Source of the DNA: Hericium rajendrae
Taxonomy: Eukaryota > Basidiomycota > Agaricomycetes > Russulales > Hericiaceae
Direction: 5' to 3'
NCBI GenBank assembly: GCA_033439255.1
Contig: CM065889.1
Span: 2,108,001 to 2,172,000 of the forward strand
Length of the DNA stretch: 64,000 bases
In this document: one piece after another, positions 1 through 10,655 of the stretch
Numbering within the stretch: position 1 is the first letter of the stretch
How the letters are laid out: each line of letters begins with the position of its first letter
The notes under the pieces: model-generated
The model's input: the letters and a program-made list of their open reading frames with translations, nothing else
What the model was told of the DNA's origin: nothing
The model's database searches: none
Program-made: the position numbers and the translations under genes

Positions 1-413
1 ACGCTGGGGCGGACGTGTTCGCGCCGTCCGGGCATGCGAGAGTGTGCGCCCGCATGGGAAACGGCTGGAGAGGCCGTCCGCGGCGTGCACGCACAGCTCA
101 GACCTCGCGCGGGCTTGCGACCTTGCGTAGCCGTGTGCGCACAGCCAGATGTCGCGGCCGCGAGCGCATTGTCGACAGCGAGGTGGTTGTATGACCCGCA
201 CGAACCTGTTGAGGACGTGCGGGTGTCGTTGAGGGTGAGCGCGGGAGTCCGAGCGACGTGTCGTGCCCCGTTGCCACGGCAACGAGGCACGACAACGCGG
301 ACGTGGACGGTGTTGTTGTTGGGGGATGGGGCTGCTGCGAGCTCGTGGACATGGACCGCGGGGTTGTCGAAGGCGATGGGGGCGTGGTGCGCGTGGTTGC
401 AAGAACGAAAGCA

Positions 414-489
414 CGAGTATCGCTCGGTGAACGAGCGATACTCGCTGTGTTAGTACAAGAAACAAATGAAAGAGAGTTTTTAAACATAC
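414..489 (-). other. Mini-intron followed by 13-bp hairpin in A1
   Basis: On the minus strand an AG/GTATGT donor (489) leads through a TACTAAC branch-point sequence to a CACAG acceptor (445), giving a 45-nt intron. The first transcribed bases after it form a perfect 13-bp hairpin: arms 432-444 and 414-426, loop of 5. The same arrangement occurs in A2 and A3 with paired base changes. Confidence 0.6.
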
Positions 490-837
490 CTATTAGCCCC
501 TCAAGCCGTCTACTAAGTCCTCCCGAGTCTTGAAGACGCCGTGCGTATGGAGAGAGAGAGGCAGACGAAGGGGGAGATGGAGGGAGTGTTGCATAGATAC
601 AAGTCGCGCGACGACTTACAGCCACAGCAGCATTCAACTCGCGCGTTCAGCGGTTTCGACTCTAACAAATCGAATAAAATCCGTTTAATTCACGAAAAAA
701 GTGAGAAGATATAGCACACCGGTATAAATACAATGAATGAGCCATCTATGTAATTACTTTACGACACGCTCGCAGGTATCAAAATCCACTTAATAGAATC
801 TAACGGCCAGCCTCTGGCACGATGCCCGGCTATGCCC

Positions 838-990
838 GGCCCGGTCTCGGCAAGCTACATTTGACGCTCCGATTGCCACGTCTATATAAGACATGCACGA
901 CGCGCTGTCTCTCTCTCTTCCCTACCACTACCATCCCTCGTCTTTCGTCGCTCTCTCTTCTTCTGCTTCAACTTTCTAATGTTCGGTAAG
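838..990 (+). promoter_or_regulatory. TATA-type promoter and CT-rich start region of A1
   Basis: A CTATATAAG box near 887-895 is followed by a CTCTCTCTCTTCC tract and a CAAC-containing leader, typical of a fungal pol II start region. The block is conserved in A2 (6530-6690, plus) and A3 (8340-8460, minus), from the GGCCCGGTCTCGGC motif to an ATGTTCG just before a splice donor. Conservation of promoter and donor, with drift between them, suggests the block was used. Confidence 0.6.
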
Positions 991-1170
991 TTGTTATATT
1001 GTTGCTATATTATTCTATTGTTTACTAACCCTACTGTTCTTTGTAGACTTTTATATCTTTGCTTTATTATCTTAAGTAAGTCTTATGTTTTTCTATATCT
1101 GTATCTTTGTATACTAATTTGTTGACTTTGCCTTTAGATTATTTTCGCTTTTTCTTATCTGTAGAGTAAG
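986..1170 (+). other. Two introns with micro-exons of 29 and 28 nt (A1)
   Basis: A donor at 986 (TTCG/GTAAGT), branch TTTACTAAC and acceptor TTTGTAG give intron 986-1046. Exon 1047-1075 is 29 nt. Intron 1076-1137 has branch ATACTAAT. Exon 1138-1165 is 28 nt and is followed by another GTAAGT. A2 has the same pattern at 6693-6753, 6754-6782 (29 nt), 6783-6846 and 6847-6874 (28 nt). Reading from the ATG at 979 gives only a short peptide, so the transcript may be non-coding. Confidence 0.5.
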
Positions 1171-1489
1171 TCTTATCTTATCTTTTTTGTCTATGTTTTA
1201 TCTTTAAGTTCTATCTTATCTTATCTTTGTATCTTATCTCATCTTATCTTTGTATGTTTTGTTATCTTATCTTGAAGTGTTGATCTTTACAGTGTATCAT
1301 AGATGTGTAGTTGTAGCTTTGTGCTAAATGTGTTGTAATTTAATATTGTTTGAAATATAATGCTTTTAAATTTTTGATGTTTTAAATGTTATAGATGCAA
1401 CAAGATTCAAATATATTATATATGTATATTTAAATATATTTTTAGCACTCTTAAGCAGCATACAAGACATAGGTGATATAGAGTAGATA

Positions 1490-1735
1490 GCAGCCTTACT
1501 AGCTAGACATGATATGATAACAGAGATATACCACATAGCTGACATAGCTATGATAGCCATCATATGTTATAGCAGCTATGAGAGCTATGATAGCTTATAG
1601 TCTATGCTATGATAGCTATGATAGCTATGATAGCTCTATATAGATTACTTCACTACTATGGAGTAGCTATGTAGAAAAGAGGACTCCTATGGCCCTATCA
1701 GAGCTATGTAGACTATATAGTGCCATATACCACTG
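1490..1735. repeat. ATAGCTATG subterminal array, right side of A1
   Basis: Degenerate tandem and interspersed copies of ATAGCTATG / AGCTATGAT. The core ATAGCTAT is its own reverse complement, so neighbouring units can pair. It ends about 10 bp before the terminal TTTCTCAGATG. Confidence 0.8.
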
Positions 1736-1751
1736 GTCCTTTTCTCAGATG

Positions 1752-2816
1752 ACTGAGGACTGGTGGACGAGGGGCTGATTGGCGGCATTCAGTGCGAGTG
1801 GACAGGTTCTTGACCGGGGGTTTATTCAGAGTGCAAGAGGAAGGGCAGCGAGTCATGTCGACATGACGAGAGACCCAATCGATTTCAGGGTTGTGCTCCT
1901 GTAACCAATCGGTCCCAAGGATGATGTCGTAGTCACCAATGTCAACGAGATAGAACTCAGCTGTCTCCTCATGGAAGGACGTCGAGTCCTTGGCATAAAT
2001 GCGGATGTTCTGGTTGACTGAATAGCGAACCCAGCCCATGATGTTTTCGGAGTTGTCCACATTGCGAACGGGAAAGGGTTTAGGGAGTTTCTTGAGGGGG
2101 AACTGGTGTTTCTTGGCAAACTCGGGGTGCATAATGATGCCTTCTGCACCACTATCGAGAAGTGCCTCAGCGTCGATTTGTTTCTTGATCGGGGCAGTGA
2201 TAATCTTGGCCTGGAGCATAATGGATGGTGTCTGATGGTTGGACGTGATAGCGGACATGCGCAAAGACGATGGATACGATTGCTCACAGGGGTCGGATAG
2301 TACAGAGAAGCGATTCAACAGATCAAAGAAATGTTTCTTGCCACCCATGGATGACATGACCGGGGGGCACTTTAAAAACCCTCAACCATATCCTTTAATG
2401 CAGCCTTTGCCTCTTCCCTCTCTTCCTCACTCAAGTCCTTCAACTGTGACAATAAGTCGATGATGGACCTGTTGATGGCGGGGACAGCGAGAGTGGCAGC
2501 TGCATCTTCTGGAGCTACTCCCGGGGCAGAGCCAGTTTCTAGCGCTCAGACACGAGGGATTGGGGCATGGGGGTTGGAGTCAGCATTGAGGGGACAGTCG
2601 TGGAAGCCATGGCCCTTCTGGCGGCAGCGGAAGCAACCGCCCTCATGCCTGAGATGCTCAGGGTCAGGCTCCGAGAGTTTGGGCAGTGGGGCACCTGTAG
2701 CAGCAACTGTGCGGGATCGGCCAGTAGATGTGGACTGAGGGGAGCGAGTGCTCACCAGGGTGCGCCCAGTTGTAGGGCGGGGACTCTGGAACCGGGTGCG
2801 CATGAGGTAGGCAGCA
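1752..2816 (-). pseudogene. Ty3/Gypsy Gag C-terminal zinc knuckle and aspartic protease relic
   Basis: Minus strand, read from right to left. A frame at 2803-2546 holds a CCHC zinc knuckle (CFRCRQKGHGFHDC), after which an in-frame TGA at 2546-2548 interrupts Gag; the same frame continues with a helical, charged tail (SEEEREEAKAALKDM) to a natural-looking TAA near 2376. The next frame (2357-1713) contains a retropepsin-like motif LLDSGAEG and the later IILGTDWL block, as in Ty3 Pol proteins. Coding similarity stops at 1752, where element A1 begins; the last 13 residues of the open frame are A1 sequence. Reverse transcriptase and integrase are absent here and, if they survive, should lie to the left of A1. 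This is the 3'-most piece of the Gag-Pol relic also seen at 7499-7670 and 10656-11950. Confidence 0.85.
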
Positions 2817-2859
2817 CATCTGAGAAATGTGTTTTTTATATAGCAGCAAGTCCTATTAT

Positions 2860-3060
2860 GGGCCCTATCAGAGAGCTATGGGAGCTATGAACTTAGACTA
2901 TTCAGCTATGTGGAGCTATGGGGCCTATGATAGCCTCTATAGCATGAGGTGTTGAATACATAGGATGCCATAGCCTCTATAGCCAGGGGTGTTATGTACA
3001 TAGGACTATGATACTTACCAAGGGGAACTATGGCTACTATGGCTACTACAGGCCTTATGG
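2860..3060. repeat. AGCTATG-type array, left side of A2
   Basis: Degenerate units (GAGCTATGG, CTATGATAGC) continue from the left end of A2, mirroring the array beside the right end. Confidence 0.7.
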
Positions 3061-3219
3061 TAAGTCACCTAGGCAATAAAGACATGAGGTCAACATTTTC
3101 TGATATTCAATTGTAGACTACTACAGGCACTACAAAATCTAACACCAAACTACTTTGTAAATAAAAGCCCTGAACAAGCTCGCATCCCGCACAGCAACGA
3201 TGTGACAACAGCACAGCGG

Positions 3220-4592
3220 AGGCGTGCGGTGGTCAGCGCGGGGGCCATTTCGAGACGTGCGCAGTGCGGACAGCCGGTATAGGCAGTCAGGGGGCGCGCG
3301 GGCCATGCGGGCACTGTGGGAGGCTGCGGGCAGGCCCGCACCGTCCAGGGCACATGATGGAGTGCGAGGGCAGGCCCGCGCTCTCATAGCTGTGCGTGGG
3401 CGAGGGCATGCTGTTGAGCGTGCAACGGCGTGCGACGGCAGGCACGCATTGGCGTTGCCGTGTGCATGCCGTCCGGGACATGCATGCCGCCATGCGCCTA
3501 TGCGCGCATCGTCGGACATGCGAGGGATGGTGAGTACTTGCGCACGCCGTGCCTGGGTTGCCCCACGGCTGTGTGGGCCGTGCGTGGCCGTGCGCAAGCT
3601 CGCAGGGCGGTGCGTGGTCGCACGCAGTCGGGGTTGGGTTTCGCCCCGTGGGTGACCGTGCCCATGCTCGTGTGGGACCGCGTGGTCGCGGCGGGTGCTA
3701 GCGTGGGCGGGCGAACGCAGTCAGAAGGTCGGTCCTCGCGCGCGCCGTGCATGGGCATGCGCGCGTGAGCGGGGCCGAGCACGGTCGTGCACTCGCGTGC
3801 GGGAGTGCGTGCACACGCTGGATAGGACGTGTGCGCGCGATCAGGGCACTGCGCGGACTTGCGTTCGTGCATGGCCTTCGCGTTCTTGCGTGGACGTGGG
3901 TGGTGAGGGTGTGCACATGCTTGGAGGGCCGCTCGCGGGCGTACGTGGCCGTACGTGCACAGCCACGTGTCGCGGCCGCCAGCACGTTACGGACGCGGCG
4001 GGGGTGCTGCGGCACGGCCCTGGTGAGATGGTGGATCCGCTTCGACCTATTGGGGGCGTGCGGGGGCGTTTGAGTGGATGCAAGGGCTGCGGGAGGCCGG
4101 GCGAGCAAGTCAGCAACGTAGTCGCGCCTCGTTGCCACGGCAACGGGACACGACGACGCGGATGCGGACGGCATTGTCGGGGGGGATGGGGGCATGGCGG
4201 GCTCGTGGAAATCGACGCGGGGTGTCGAAGGCGATAGAGGTGCGCTGCGCGGTTGCGAGAAAGCAAGCGCGCGATACTCGATGTATTAGTACGACAAGAC
4301 AATAAATGAAAGATTTTTTTTACTTACCTGTCGGCCCTCGTAACATCTGCGCGGACGCCATCGTCAGCGTCGGCGGATGGGGTAATGGGAGGCTGTGGGT
4401 GTGGACGTGGGCGTGGGCGTGGGCGCGTGCATGGGGGCTCGACGGGCGAGCTGTCAACCTCGCGCGCACGCGGCCGGGTCTGCGCGTAGCGTTGGTGACG
4501 TGCAGCGGGTCGGAGCTGCCTGCGGCATGTTCGAGAAGGGGGCAGGGTGCTGGCGACGTGGCGAAGAGAAGGCGAGGCGGGAGAGGATGTCG
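3220..4592. repeat. GC-rich body with decayed intron and hairpin (left half of A2)
   Basis: The stretch 3940-4330 matches 110-500 of A1 over the whole length, including the short block CGTTGCCACGGCAACG. The donor AG/GTAAGT (minus, 4327) and branch TACTAAT are kept, but the acceptor AG has become AT and only one hairpin arm remains. Long frames on both strands (for example 3224-3655 and 3698-4195) reflect lack of stop codons in GC-rich repeat DNA and show no recognisable domain. Confidence 0.65.
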
Positions 4593-6074
4593 CACTGGAG
4601 AAACTCAGAAATATCTTCCGCTGTTATTCGGCGGAAACGAGTCGTTTCAGCTCAATTTCGGCGAGATATCCACAAAATCGCCGCCAGCGGTTATTTGGCC
4701 GTTAGTAATCCTTTTGGCTTCATAACAGCCACCTTTTCGCTCGATTTCCACAGCGAAACCGCCAGCACCATTAGAGATCCACATTTCCCCCTTCCCCTCG
4801 GGCCACTGTACTTGTCCAAAATCCATTTGTATACCCATTCATTTCGCTTGAACGTAGACCTATTATACATCCACTGTGTGCTACAACCGTAATACGGTAT
4901 CTATCTATCCCTGAGCCATTATTCGAGCCCCCAACCCAACCCTGGTCTCGAGCAAGCCAATCGGGATACTGGCCGCTCGTATTCAAGCCAGCATTCATCC
5001 GAAATGACTATGCTGGACTACCGCGGGACCATGGCTCAAAAGCGCTTACCGATATCTCACGTCCCGCTGTACACCATAACGGGCAGATATTTTGGACCCA
5101 CTCGCCCTCGTCTCACTGAGTCTTGCAGAACTTCCACGACGGCGCAACGACGGCATAGCTAAGCAATTATCATGAGCACCATGGAGTGGGTGCGTAAGAG
5201 ACTCGACTCACTCAATAATTAGCATGTGGACGTTTGAACTCCCAGACATTAGATTATCGTGCCGCGCTTGTGCGCTCACCATTCTACAAAGTCGAGGACA
5301 TACCTCTGTATTTGTGAGTGATCAAATCAGTACAATATCATCACTCGTACCTGTTGCGCAGAGGGAGGCATTGCAATGCAGGGCAGAAAACATATAGACC
5401 TGGCTATATGCGCATATATGCACTGCGAAGGGCAGTAAGCATGAGAAACGACATGAAGGTCACATAGGACAATGAGGTTGGATTAAAAAAGGTCGCAACA
5501 CGCTTAAAAGGCCATGCGAAACTCACCGGAACCACAAATCCTCACAGCTTGCACAATCCAGAACTCAACCACGACTGCTAATATCCGAGCTCTTCGCAAA
5601 GTCAAGGGTGCAATATCTTCATTGAGGTCTTCCAAGCAGCTGAAGACGGTGAATTATAGTCAGATCCAGTTAAATATGAGAGCGAGACTGACGGACAGTC
5701 TACGTAAACGACAAACATCCTATGATACGGGCGCAATGGCCAATGGCGGCGAGAAGGTGAGTCAATCCTGGGAATTTATGAAGGGAACAGTAGAGAGCTG
5801 TCGGTACACGAGGGAAAGCGGGAGGCAGCGCACTCGACGTCGAGCGACATCGTGGTAAGAGGGAGAAGTACGACTTGGAAAGAAATCGGAGAACAAGACA
5901 AAAACAAGACGCGACGCGGACGCGCGTCGCGACTTGATAATTTGCATCACGCGTAAGCTGAAATCTGGCGAAAAGGGCGCCGATACGGAGGTGGAAGGAA
6001 ATTGGCGGATATCGCGCCGAAAGGACTCGTTTCTACCAAATAATGGCGGCGGCTATTTTTGGGTTTCTCCAGTG
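4593..6074. mobile_element. DNA element with CACTGGAGAAAC inverted ends
   Basis: Left end CACTGGAGAAACTC at 4593 and right end, read in reverse, CACTGGAGAAACCC at 6074. Similarity between the ends continues inward for about 90 bp (shared GAAACGAGTC and GATATCC blocks). CACTG/CACTA termini are typical of the CMC (En/Spm) superfamily, but no clear 3-bp target duplication is seen (TCG left, GAC right). The interior has only short frames and no recognisable transposase, so it is probably non-autonomous. It sits between the duplicated halves of A2. Confidence 0.55.
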
Positions 6075-6420
6075 GACGTCGGGGATGGGGTGCGTCGCCG
6101 GTGTCGGAAAACGAGAGTATCGCTCGACAACGAGCGATACTCTCTTTATTAGTACGAACAGTATCAATAAAGAGTTTTTTTTTACTTACCTTGCACCCTC
6201 TACACCTCATCGAGACCCTCCCGCATTCGATCGGACGAGATATAGAGGAGAGGGAGGGATAAGGGACGAGGAGAGGAGGGTGGTGGTAAGCATATGATGA
6301 TGAGTCGAACTTCGACGCGCCTTCGGTGCTTCAACTACCGAACGCGCGCGAGTTCGAACATCTCGAGTTTATTAAATCAAATAAAATCCGTTAAACTCCA
6401 AGAAAAAGATTACAGCCAGC
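6075..6420 (-). repeat. Second GC tail, hairpin, intron and exon block of A2
   Basis: Minus-strand donor AG/GTAAGT (6189), branch TACTAAT, acceptor AAAG (6144): a 46-nt intron. The hairpin arms are 6131-6144 and 6113-6126 (14 bp, loop ACAA). The outermost pair of the shared 13-bp stem is A-T here and C-G in A1, a paired change. The exon side (6190-6400) shares the AAATCRAATAAAATCCGTT block with A1 (about 665-690) and A3. Confidence 0.6.
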
Positions 6421-6529
6421 TCTCATTTATTCAATCGGATCGTATGAGACGACTATCTAACTAAGCTACTATAAGTTACGGGGCAGCGAAGTGAAGTTAG
6501 GGACATCTGGCACTTAGCCTCTGACGCGA

Positions 6530-7010
6530 GTGCTCGGCACTGCCCGGCCCGGTCTCGGCAGTCACGTTTGGCGCTCCGCTCGCCACGTCTATATAAAGCG
6601 ACCGCGATGCGCTGTCTCTCTCTCTTCCGTACCACTACCATCTCTCGTCTTTCGGCAGTGTCTCCTCTTTTGCTTCAACTTTGTTATGTTCGGTATGTTG
6701 TTATGTTGTTCTTATGATGTTTTATTGTTCATCAATCCTAATGTTATTTGTAGACTTCAAATTTTCGCTTTTATTTCCTTCAGTAAGTCTTATGTTTTCA
6801 TATATATCTTTATCTTGTGTACTAATTTGTTGACTTTGTCTTGTAGATTATTTTCGCTTTTTCTTATCTTTGAAGTAAGTCTCTTGTCTTTGAAAGGATT
6901 ATCTTATCTCTTATCTTTTAGCATCATCTTATCTTATATCATTTTAGTGTTACCTTATCTTATCTTATCTCTTATCTTTAGTATTATCTTATCTTTGAGT
7001 CTTATTCTAT
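6530..7010 (+). promoter_or_regulatory. TATA promoter and micro-exon leader of A2
   Basis: CTATATAAAG near 6588 is followed by CTCTCTCTCTTCC, ATGTTCG and a splice donor at 6693. Introns 6693-6753 and 6783-6846 flank 29-nt and 28-nt micro-exons. Downstream is a long TATCTT-rich tract. An open frame (6530-7030) crosses this region but breaks the conserved splice signals and has no domain. Confidence 0.55.
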
Positions 7011-7194
7011 TTTGTAGTATCATATTGTAGTAATGTTTGTAGTAATATGCTTGATGTGTTGTAATTGAAATATTGCTTGAATTATAATGCTTTTAAAATT
7101 TTGATATTTTGAATGTCTCAAATATATTATAAACTATTTTTTTATTAGATAAATTTATAATACTTTATAATCAACATTGTTGTCAGAGATGACA

Positions 7195-7487
7195 TAAAAT
7201 AGATAGCAGTCTTACTAGCTAGACATGATATAATATACTACATAGCTAACATAGCTATGATAGCTGTTATATGCTATAATAGCTATGATAGCTATGATAG
7301 CTATGATAGCTTATACTCTATACTACGATAGCTATAATAGCTACTGCCTTATACTATGGTAGCTATGATAGCTATGATAGCTCTTTATAGATTACTTCAC
7401 TACTATGGAGGAGCTATGTAGAAAAGAGGACTCCTATGGCCCTATCAGAGCTATGTAGGATATATAGTGCCACATATCACTGGTCCT
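7195..7487. repeat. ATAGCTATG array, right side of A2
   Basis: Several near-perfect consecutive ATAGCTATG units around 7270-7300 and 7350-7380, then the 80-bp right end shared with A1. Confidence 0.8.
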
Positions 7488-7498
7488 TTTCTCAGATG

Positions 7499-7670
7499 CC
7501 ATTCCTGTCACGGGCCCTCGCCTTCCACTCAGCCAGGGTGGTGGGCGTGGGGTAGCTGCACTGGCAATCATCCCGCAGGGCACTGTTGAGGCCATGCAGG
7601 AACCAATCAATCAGGGCCACATCGTTGTAGCCGGTGCGAGGAGCGAAGGACTCGAACTCAGTGATGTAAT
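7499..7670 (-). pseudogene. Ty3/Gypsy Gag middle fragment
   Basis: The minus strand reads as an uninterrupted Gag segment with the motifs YITEFES, ALIDWFLHGLN and LAEWKARA, matching the retrotransposon gag domain of Ty3 elements. It is bounded on the right by A3 (left end at 7671) and on the left by A2 (right end at 7498). It continues the N-terminal piece at 10656: removing A3 and one 2-bp AT duplicate restores the order VDYITEF in frame. It continues into the zinc-knuckle piece across A2. Confidence 0.85.
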
Positions 7671-7689
7671 CATCAGAAAAATTTGCAGG

Positions 7690-7990
7690 TCCTACATAGT
7701 TCTACATATCTTATATAGAAGTCATAGGCCCATAGCACCTCCCTTTACTACATAGCTCTCATAGCCTAAAGGGAGAGCTATGAAGTGCTATGAGATGCTA
7801 TAGAGCTGAAGAGTGTGCTATGATCTGCTATCATAGCTATCATAGCTAATTATGAAGCTATTATAGGATGCCTAGCTATTACATCTATCAGAGCTATAAA
7901 ATCTATATGTACTATGTTGGATAGGTAGGCTTGCCACATCTATACAATCAACAGAGCCTATCAAAGCTATTCAAGTTATAGCTTGACTGA
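7690..7990. repeat. AGCTATG-type array, left side of A3
   Basis: Degenerate CTATCATAGCTATCATAGC and related units follow the left end of A3. Confidence 0.75.
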
Positions 7991-8239
7991 ATATAATATA
8001 TATATTTTAAATAAAATGAATAATCACACAAATAACAATATCGAGAGAACTGAGCAAATCAAATTATATTTATCATTCTAGCCTATTACAAAATCTTATG
8101 ACTAAGTACAAACATATATATACTACTAACACTAGAAAGATAACTAAGTCAATACAAAGACTACAAAAAGCGGAAATAGAACCAACAATCAGTAAAAGAG
8201 TAAGACTCACTTAGACTATATAACAAAAGATAACAAAAG

Positions 8240-8465
8240 CGTAACCTATATAACAGAACAAAGGAACAAAGACATAAGACAAGCATATGTTAGCAAATAT
8301 AAAGGATAAAAACTTACCGAACACTGAGAAAAGAAGTACAAGTTAAGAGCAAGCCCGGAGTGAAGGGGGAAGGTAGTAGTTGAAGAGAGAAAGACGACAC
8401 ATGTTGTGCGAGGTTTATATAGCTGAGCACGGACGTGCCCGGTCGGAGCCACAAATGTGGCTGCC
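8240..8465 (-). promoter_or_regulatory. Leftward promoter and first intron of A3
   Basis: Reading the minus strand, a CTATATAAACC box near 8420 is followed by a CT-rich start region and TTCG/GTAAGT (donor 8317) with a TATATAG acceptor near 8246. This is the A1/A2 promoter block in reverse, so the A2 and A3 promoters point at each other across the Gag fragment at 7499-7670. Confidence 0.5.
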
Positions 8466-8820
8466 GCACGCGGCCGTGTGTCGCAAGAAAGGCTACGAAG
8501 CTAGACTTTACTAACTTACATTGCCTATCCGTAGGTGCATTGTACAGTACATACTTATGTAGCTCATTAGTTGTTATTGTATAAACTGTCTACGCTCGCT
8601 GCGCTTTTTCTAAATTTAATGCGATTTTGTATGATTTGCTGAGTGTCGGAAGCCGTAGACTCGCCCGTTCGGTGGCTGAAGCAGTGAATGTGCGTCAACT
8701 CGTACGAATGTCTTTAACTTTGCTCAATCTTCCACTAGCCTCGTCGCTCCTCTCTCACTTCGTCCCTTCCTCGACAACTCAACTATCGGTGGGATGCGGC
8801 TGTGAGAAAACGGGCTACAG

Positions 8821-8896
8821 GTAAGTAAAAAACAGTTCTATTATCTCCCCACCGTACTAATACAGGGAGTATCGCCCGTAAAACAGGCGATACACC
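8821..8896 (+). other. Mini-intron and hairpin of A3
   Basis: CTACAG/GTAAGT at 8821, branch TACTAAT and TACAG acceptor at 8865 give a 45-nt intron with textbook signals. The exon then folds: GTATCGCC (8869-8876) pairs with GGCGATAC (8886-8893), extended after one A-A mismatch by GG/CC. Relative to A1, a T-A pair has become C-G. Confidence 0.6.
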
Positions 8897-9369
8897 CGTT
8901 CTTCATCACTCCACACCCCGGCCTCCATGTCCCACCCCCGCACGACTTCCACAACCTCCCCGTACACATACGTTCCAACCTCACCTGTGCCTGCGCTTGT
9001 CCCAACAACGCGCACACGTCCTGCCAATGCACACACGCCCGCCAACACACATACACCCCGCGAGCGTACACGTCTGCGCACGGGCCCGCCAACGCACCTG
9101 CGCACGGCCTCGCACACCGGCGACTACGTACGGCCAGCCTCGCGTGCTGGCGACAGCTTGAGCATGGCCTCATTGGCTTATGCATGCTGTACGGTCCCGC
9201 CTGCGACCATCTGTGTGCCTGCCTGCCCCCGCCTGTGCGTGCATGGCCCCACCCGCGCACAATGCAGAACGTCATGCGGGCAGCTGCGACGTGAGGTGCA
9301 CTGCGCGGGCACCTCGAGCATGATGTCGGCCGCACGCATTGGCCACGTCATTGAGTGCAGCCCCGACAC

Positions 9370-9860
9370 TGCATGCCCTTCTCGCTGCGTCCGTGTCCTT
9401 CCCGCCTTGTCCATGCCCTCCCCGCCATGTGCACACCCTCACTGCCATGTCCACGCCCTCTCTGCCTCATCCGTGCCCTCTCCACCACGTCGCCGTCCTC
9501 TCTGCTGCATCGCCGTCCTCTCCGCCGTGTCAACGCCCTCCCCGCCGCGTCAACGCCCCTGCTGCATCCGTGCCCTCTCCGCCGCGTCGCTGCCCTCTCC
9601 GCCGCATCACCGTCGTCTCCGCCGCGTCGCTGTCATCTCCGCCACATCGCCGTCGTCTCCGCCACATTGCCATCCTCCCCGCCATGTCAATGCCCTCCCC
9701 TCCGCGTCAACGCCCTCCCTGCCACGTGAACGCCCTCTGCGCCGCGTCGACACCCTCTATGCCGCGTCGACGCCCTCTGTGCCGCATCGACGCCCTCTGC
9801 ACCGCGTCGACACCCTCCGCGCCGCGTCGATGCCCTCCCTGCTGCCTTCGCACCCTCCCC
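9370..9860. repeat. 20-bp GC-rich minisatellite
   Basis: Imperfect units such as GCCGCGTCGACGCCCTCTGT repeat with a 20-bp period, clearest at 9735-9840. Because 20 is not a multiple of 3 and the unit lacks stop codons, frames stay open in all three phases, which explains the long overlapping frames here. GC-rich degenerate sequence continues to about 10260. Confidence 0.75.
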
Positions 9861-10429
9861 GCCACCTCTACGCATTCGGCGCTGCCTTTCACGCTATCTG
9901 CGCTGCCTCCGCGCTATCCACCCTGTCTCCACGCTATCCGCGCTGCGTCCGCACCGTGTCCACGCCGTCCGCACCGTATCCATGCCATCCGCGCCATGTC
10001 TGCGCCGTCCGTGCTGTCCGTGCTGTCTGTGCCGCCTCTCCGCCCTCTGCCGCACCTTGCGTGCATCGTCAACACATGCGTGTGACCAGAACGCCATGCG
10101 CACGGACCGCAGCAGCCACCTTAAGGCAGCACAGCAGACAGTGGCCCCCGCGCGACACCCTGCTGTCGTATACAGGGTGCCAATGCCTTGTGCGCGATGT
10201 CAGCGGGCTGCAGGCGACATCAGCAGCCCGCGTGCGACTGCTACGTGATGTGTGCATGGCCGTGATCTACTACATGCACACAGTTATATTCTTAATTACA
10301 ACTAGTTTCTGTAGCTGTAATTAAGTTCTTGTAACTGTGTTCCTTATACCAGTAAACCAATTTTGAAAATGGAAGTCCCTCGTTTCATAAAATTGAAATT
10401 TTGACTTGTGATTATGGAGTCTACCATAT

Positions 10430-10640
10430 CTGACATAGGGCTGATAGAGTCCATAGCAAGGCTATGATGATACATAGCACTGATAGTAATGGCTTACAGC
10501 TACATAGGCCTATATATCTTCTGCCTGCTGCTATGAAGGCTATCATAATGTGCATAGCTCTACATAGGTGCAAGGGTGGCTATATAGATTCCATAGCACT
10601 ATGCTAGGACACATACTTTAGTACTGAGCTATATAAATTT
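10430..10640. repeat. AGCTATG-type array, right side of A3
   Basis: Degenerate CTATGATGATACATAGC and related units run up to the right end of A3. Confidence 0.65.
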
Positions 10641-10655
10641 CTAATTTTTCAGATG

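Follow-up and report, generated by a model that had tools for sequence, protein, structure and literature searches.

The window analysed here is a stretch of 64,000 nucleotides from Hericium rajendrae (assembly GCA_033439255.1, contig CM065889.1, positions 2,108,001-2,172,000 of the forward strand); the genome comprises 46.8 Mb in 19 contigs, and positions are given either within the window (w) or on numbered contigs, the window being C12:2108001-2172000. The left 10.7 kb of the window is one Ty3 element cut by three insertions, A1, A2 and A3, which are flanked by parts of the Ty3 protease, gag and reverse transcriptase. A1, A2 and A3 are mobile elements of one family. Their features are as follows, the strand given for A1, A2 and A3 being that of the unit that comprises the hairpin and the GC-rich body.

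w1-1751, minus strand: A1, the part in the window; ends read directly
w414-489, minus strand: A1 45-nt intron motif (w445-489) followed by the hairpin (w414-444)
w882-890, plus strand: A1 TATA box CTATATAAG, promoter reading toward the right end; direct sequence
w979-1165, plus strand: A1 first 5' splice site (ATGTTCG/GTAAGT) and predicted micro-exons
w1450-1751, no strand: A1 right subterminal array, rich in ATAGCTATG
w2817-7498, minus strand: A2, a family member split into 2817-4592 and 6075-7498 by a nested element
w4593-6074, no strand: nested foreign element in A2, CACTGG..CCAGTG, 1482 bp, not a family member
w6113-6189, minus strand: A2 intron motif (w6144-6189) and hairpin (w6113-6143); direct sequence, with an identical block in copy L032
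w6589-6597, plus strand: A2 TATA box CTATATAAA
w7180-7498, no strand: A2 right subterminal array
w7671-10655, plus strand: A3, 2985 bp; ends read directly, empty site
w7671-8000, no strand: A3 left end with its subterminal array; four other copies are 93-95% identical over the first 100 bases
w8414-8422, minus strand: A3 TATA box, reading toward the left end; direct sequence, block found by homology
w8821-8896, plus strand: A3 45-nt intron motif (w8821-8865) and hairpin (w8866-8896)
w8927-10290, no strand: A3 body, rich in GC and CpG and apparently non-coding; repeats with a 20-bp period at about w9370-9882
w10400-10655, no strand: A3 right end and weak subterminal array

The first-pass annotation of this stretch had placed the three elements in the left part of the window, and its borders for A3 stood, while the other extents had to be revised. 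A1 begins 916 bases upstream of the window (left end C12:2107085, right end w1751), the whole element being 2667 bp long (C12:2107085-2109751); A2 holds the foreign element, without which it measures about 3.2 kb; and A3 lies in the orientation opposite to that of A1 and A2, with its promoter on the minus strand. The claim that the elements share their ends was borne out, as CATCWGARAAA was found at all five ends within the window (A1 right, w1751; A2, w2817 and w7498; A3, w7671 and w10655). The left end of A3 begins with CATCAG, and the right end of A3 and both ends of A1 and A2 with CATCTG. The arrays reported just inside the ends were also confirmed: AGCTAT/ATAGCT occurs 43 times per kb in the right terminus of A1, 63 times in that of A2 and 30 times in the left terminus of A3, and 8-14 times per kb at the three other termini, compared with 0.38 per kb in w10700-64000. 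In the A3 orientation the order of parts is left end, array, leftward promoter with small exons, divergent region, rightward intron motif, hairpin, GC-rich body and right end. The CACTG-ended element nested in A2 has copies at five other places that are up to 100% identical, and it is absent from L032, the copy of A2 at C1:5162049-5165232, which thus represents its empty site. By eye, 3-bp duplications flank all five of the other copies read (ATA, TTG, TAC, ATT and TAC, two of them after a small shift); the copy in the window has an imperfect 7-bp repeat, GATGTCG/GACGTCG, instead. At w4112-4337 A2 has another, degenerate version of the hairpin region, which contains the palindrome GTTGCCACGGCAAC and is shared with A1 252-499.

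The insertion of A3 between parts of a Ty3 gag gene, with a 2-bp duplication, is supported at the base level. AT is present at w7669-7670 and again at w10656-10657, where the uninterrupted Ty3 copy L073 has GT, and the A3 flanks joined with a single AT matched each of the 40 Ty3 copies scored among 146 candidates over 234/234 bases at 94-97% identity. The general end pattern was found without mismatches at 581 places in the genome, a lower bound because this pattern misses the right-hand type of end of A1 and A2, and its reversed form at none; the strict left-end and right-end patterns, with up to three mismatches, gave 187 and 165 places, again with none for the reversed controls. The genome search with A3 as the query, which the first-pass annotation had proposed as a way to define ends and duplications, returned at least 73 matches (40 of 316 candidates scored), and the A2 query at least 145 (40 of 770), matches of the nested element included. 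A query that is itself cut at the ends, as that of A3 was, cannot establish the boundaries through its matches; these follow from the target duplications and from the flanks, which in other copies are unrelated beyond identical terminal bases. On C1 and C2, 111 ends (100 of those listed from the 581, and 11 from other searches) gave 35 neighbouring inward-facing pairs, 22 of which span 2.6-3.2 kb and 25 of which span 2.0-4.5 kb, with a median of 2724 bp for the latter. Of 23 end pairs formed for flank comparison, two (C2:4233237-4236833 and C4:429778-432943) were set aside as chance inner matches, and 19 of the remaining 21 copies, all with both ends read, carry an identical 2-bp target duplication (TT, AA, AT, GC, CA, GA, TG or TC); mismatched flank pairs from all 23 rows showed identical 2 bp in 48 of 506 cases (9.5%). 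A2 and L032 are 99-100% identical at different sites, and therefore the family has moved recently.

Neither of the outcomes that the first-pass annotation had named as contrary to its view appeared. The copies read end at CATCWGARAAA, and with their 2-bp duplications, inverted ends and empty site they are neither long terminal repeat (LTR) elements nor Helitrons. The ends are inverted, unlike those of LTR retrotransposons, and the gag and pol parts belong to the surrounding Ty3 target; Helitrons make no target duplication and have TC..CTRR ends, whereas the family has target duplications and CATC..GATG inverted ends. A preference for Ty3 targets was considered and rejected, as similarity to LTR-element proteins was found in the flanks of only 1 of 14 other copies, although this test was weak (flanks of at most 1.5 kb, one side shorter than 200 bases in 10 of the 14 copies, and three sides of at most 60 bases dropped). 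A fourth family end lies upstream of the window at C12:2105488. A single Ty3 element (C12:2105488-2118655) has therefore received four members or ends of the family, and A2 and A3 are separated by only 172 bases.

The interior of the elements contains a conserved set of predicted transcription and splicing signals. As had been proposed, micro-exons of 29 nt (w1047-1075) and 28 nt (w1138-1165) can be read in the A1 sequence downstream of the promoter, each predicted exon having AG before it and GTAAGT behind it. Among 39 homologous promoter blocks, which come from several subfamilies, the TATA core CTATATAA is conserved at 95% or more per base and the first splice site, GGTAAGT, at 80% or more per base; the third splice site is less conserved, and the motif TTTTCGCTTTT recurs in the small exons of 34 of the 39. 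In four other copies the A3 promoter region w8380-8480 is 92-94% identical, and the corresponding values for the promoter block and the ends are 92-95% and 89-95%. A small peptide encoded by the micro-exons was rejected on direct reading: in A1 the frame runs into a stop where exon 2 ends, and L068 lacks an ATG at that place.

On the other side of the divergent region, the oppositely directed intron of 45-46 nt with its hairpin, another feature of the first description, was present in all three elements. The intron motif, searched with no folding criterion, was found at a distance of 315-375 in 27 of the 37 promoter blocks with enough flank, and some of the 10 misses are due to the strict pattern, as GTGAGT occurs in three of five A3-type copies. 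Directly behind the motif a fold below -19 kcal/mol was obtained in 24 of the 27 cases, compared with 28 of 1080 windows taken elsewhere in these flanks. From 53 distinct hairpin candidates a motif filter retained 36, and after the second blocks of L032 and L033 were dropped, 34 rows (29 distinct) were aligned. In this alignment 95.5% of the cells pair, a value favoured by the energy cut-off with which the rows were picked. There is some covariation: both sides have changed in 12 cells, compared with a mean of 3.0 after shuffling and with none of 500 shuffles reaching this count, although related copies inflate it. These changes fall in 4 of the 14 pairs (mean of 2.3 in shuffles, 59 of 500 reaching 4), and slid structures have much lower scores. 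Taken together, the data on the hairpin, including its conservation among A3-type copies given below, lend moderate support to the view that it is selected as a structure. A search of Rfam gave no credible hit; the nine matches with E of 1 or less were to microRNA families only, all fell on the palindromic array at w7227-7324 with scores far below the gathering scores, and we treat them as chance.

The body that follows has a GC content of 0.67-0.70, in agreement with its first description as GC-rich, and a CpG observed/expected ratio of 1.13-1.25. The bodies of A3, A2 and the in-window part of A1 did not match each other in blastn comparisons; the promoter, intron and hairpin recur in all subfamilies read in depth while the body drifts. 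An open frame of 379-465 aa is present in all five A3-type copies, and a frame of 465 aa was reached by only 2 of 300 first-order shuffles, which points toward coding. Nevertheless, a coding body was rejected on four grounds. Substitutions are spread over codon positions 1, 2 and 3 (423/1656, 376/1662 and 427/1662, respectively), only 21 of 109 gaps are a multiple of three, A3 and a C1 copy share 52% amino-acid identity where the body DNA is 80-91% alike in 200-base windows, and in the 10 A1- or A2-type copies the longest frame on either strand measures 155-340 aa, with no start in common. The body thus looks non-coding. The elements agree with the first-pass description of a terminal inverted repeat family of roughly 3 kb, non-autonomous as far as it has been read, with no protein of its own and with two divergent putative transcripts.

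We found no transposase inside the family members read, and no place with PF18759, the Plavaka transposase domain, is listed in C12:2107085-2118655. The genome as a whole is rich in Plavaka transposases: there are 132 matches, merged into 79 places, compared with none in 14 control genomes. Several long end-pair spans were considered as autonomous copies and rejected. The span C4:1680460-1698950 (18.5 kb, duplication TT) is a nest, since the sequence flanking the insert is contiguous in L022; the insert is a Plavaka element of 15.9 kb (C4:1680933-1696786) inside a family copy. It has the ends CATCAGG..TTACTGATG, is flanked by a 3-bp duplication (AAG) and encodes a Plavaka protein (E 2.3e-109). 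This element has long CTGA-rich subterminal repeats and, in the parts read, long open frames of 492 and 453 aa that correspond to a Plavaka-type protein. Its end has 26 copies that match from the first base, 11 of which have a Plavaka gene within 6 kb inside; all 11 genes read toward the end, none has another geometry, and the other 15 copies have no gene within this distance. By eye, C4:1609970-1626982 contains KDZ-like sequence, with a PF18758 match at C4:1614427; C6:2861452-2870875 contains a copia-like element; and C2:4124251-4132304 and C2:2702442-2712079 contain LTR-element gag or reverse transcriptase (1.5 kb read of each). Two other places were noted. L069 (C12:1497300-1498160) is a chimeric end in which about 117 bp of family terminus run directly into the CTGA-rich repeats of the Plavaka element, without the terminus of the latter, and at C3:1368993-1372372 a family member appears, from coordinates, to be inserted in a Plavaka transposase gene.

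The ends and duplications allow the family to be compared with known transposons. The PlavakaB branch has been described with target duplications of 2 or 3 bp and termini CATCA..TGATG (Kojima 2025, PMC12730594, section 3.2.2); the 2-bp duplications of the family fall within this range, and its CATC[AT]GA ends resemble those termini. PlavakaB-type ends and enzymes are present in this genome and are compatible with the ends and duplications of the family. Because the duplication size matches and the terminal signature resembles those published for PlavakaB, the class of transposase that moves the family is probably a known one, and the first-pass view of the family as unrecognised was not supported as worded. 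We consider it probable that the elements constitute a large non-autonomous cut-and-paste family moved in trans by a PlavakaB-branch transposase of the CACTA-like (CMCT) superfamily; lacking PF18759, the family would be a likely non-autonomous dependant of PlavakaB and not a full member. The transposase would bind the ATAGCTATG arrays just inside the ends, cut at CATCWGA and insert with a mostly 2-bp stagger. In place of a gene, most copies read would keep two divergent transcription units, one running from the TATA promoter through the micro-exons toward the nearer end, and the other running in the opposite direction through a short intron, with a hairpin on its 3' side, into the GC-rich body.

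The genome also contains 172 matches to Kyakuja-Dileera-Zisupton (KDZ) transposases, and KDZ genes lie within three long listed end pairs (C4:1609970-1626982, C1:345229-354208 and C2:2550865-2575881), as would be expected if the family were a non-autonomous form of a KDZ transposon. However, on C1 a closer end at 347832 leaves the KDZ gene outside the element, and among the matches listed a family end lies within 15 kb of 28 of 130 merged KDZ places, the nearest end facing away from the gene in 20 of the 28 and toward it in 8. The published KDZ duplications are 7 bp for Kyakuja and 8 bp for Zisupton (PMC12730594) and 8 bp for Dileera, compared with 2 bp in 19 of 21 copies here, and we regard a KDZ origin as very improbable. 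Movement by an ordinary EnSpm/CACTA transposase (Transposase_21) would keep the family in the same CMCT superfamily, and the genome has 31 Transposase_21 matches, 29 of them over the cut-off. EnSpm/CACTA termini are CACTA or CACTG. The EnSpm signature as published comprises 5'-CAC..GTG-3' ends and 3-bp duplications, and the nested CACTG element, with its CACTGG..CCAGTG ends and 3-bp duplications (5/5), conforms to it, unlike CATCWGA with 2 bp, although the assignment of the CACTG-ended element to Transposase_21 is itself presumptive. This alternative therefore seems unlikely to us. As a separate observation, made by eye, a Transposase_21 gene is located on the outer side of a family end, at a distance of up to about 3 kb, in four places (C4:724933, C14:658391, C12:1915761 and C1:4193292), which may reflect no more than the general clustering of transposable elements.

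Several observations weigh against a PlavakaB-driven family as proposed above. The full-length relative with the same ends, arrays and a transposase, for which the first-pass annotation had advised a search, was not found in this genome among the long end-pair spans examined. A Plavaka gene lies within 6 kb inside only 1 of 200 listed family ends and outside 3 (of at least 581 ends), and the place with the inside gene carries the repeats of the other, Plavaka element as an adjoining remnant. The family has ATAGCTATG arrays where the Plavaka element read has CTGA-rich repeats, and it is not, as judged from these sequences, simply a deleted copy of that element. Many family ends, including both of A1 and both of A2, begin with CATCT and not with the published CATCA; in 32 of the 581 end matches that were printed with letters, 10 have CATCAG and 22 CATCTG. 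Base-level comparison with L073 gave a 4-bp duplication, ACTG, for A1 and an imperfect 3-bp one, GCA/CCA, for A2. The autonomous partner may be extinct or may come from another group. Finally, hairpin and intron are less well conserved than ends and promoter within the A3 type. Across five such copies 24-27 of the 31 hairpin bases and 32-43 of the 45 intron bases are retained and the adjoining stretches are 69-94% identical, compared with 89-95% for the promoter core and for the 100 bases at either end; in two of these copies the hairpin stem contains an additional base.

Loss of the autonomous relative from this genome, possibly one outside all known families, with the transcription units as relics of its gene, would account for the missing autonomous copy, for the 2.6-3.2 kb spans of most C1-C2 end pairs, for the wide divergence of the subfamilies and for the drift of hairpin and intron within A3-type copies. 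The near identity of A2 and L032, however, implies that a working transposase was present lately, and a relic promoter should decay, yet its conservation equals that of the ends; we think this explanation has little probability. We favour the dependence on a PlavakaB-type enzyme, and within it the conserved non-coding cassette is the surprising part of the family. Non-autonomous transposons normally retain little beyond their ends. That a family of hundreds of copies retains a promoter, splice signals and a hairpin across its subfamilies, without a protein, suggests that transcription or RNA may aid the element. One could envisage, as a tentative and rather doubtful idea, that a DNA transposon lineage without a protein keeps a selected non-coding RNA system of two divergent spliced transcripts, one with a hairpin behind a 45-nt intron and the other crossing its own transposase-binding array and leaving the element. 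If so, the element would benefit from its RNA, or from being transcribed at all, in the competition for a borrowed transposase or in evading silencing, and this would account for the recurrence of these parts in all the subfamilies read in depth, in contrast to the drifting body. Since the ends and the promoter are better conserved than the hairpin, we give this idea less weight.

Non-autonomous CACTA elements and large derivatives resembling miniature inverted-repeat transposable elements have the same ends and subterminal repeats as a mobile partner, carry no transposase and are usually internal deletions of an autonomous copy. The present family differs from these in that a non-coding cassette with conserved signals recurs in its interior and in that no parent copy was found. 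For PlavakaB itself, a conserved promoter, micro-exons and a hairpin are not mentioned in the portions of PMC12730594 available to us, and the family has no transposase inside. As described in PMC9674265, Marasmius oreades has hAT and Tc1/mariner families that are non-autonomous and are mobilised by relatives whose ends match theirs; these are likewise mushroom DNA elements without a transposase, but they belong to other superfamilies, and the autonomous relatives have been identified (for hAT through matching terminal inverted repeats). No description of the combination of features reported here was found in the literature searched, Repbase and the supplementary terminal motifs of KDZ and Plavaka elements (PMC8290104) lying outside that search. 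The family offers an abundant and recently mobile substrate with defined ends for transposition assays of the poorly characterised PlavakaB-type transposases. Elsewhere in the window, at w52776-63869, four long open frames resemble, by eye, two related pairs of F-box-type proteins.

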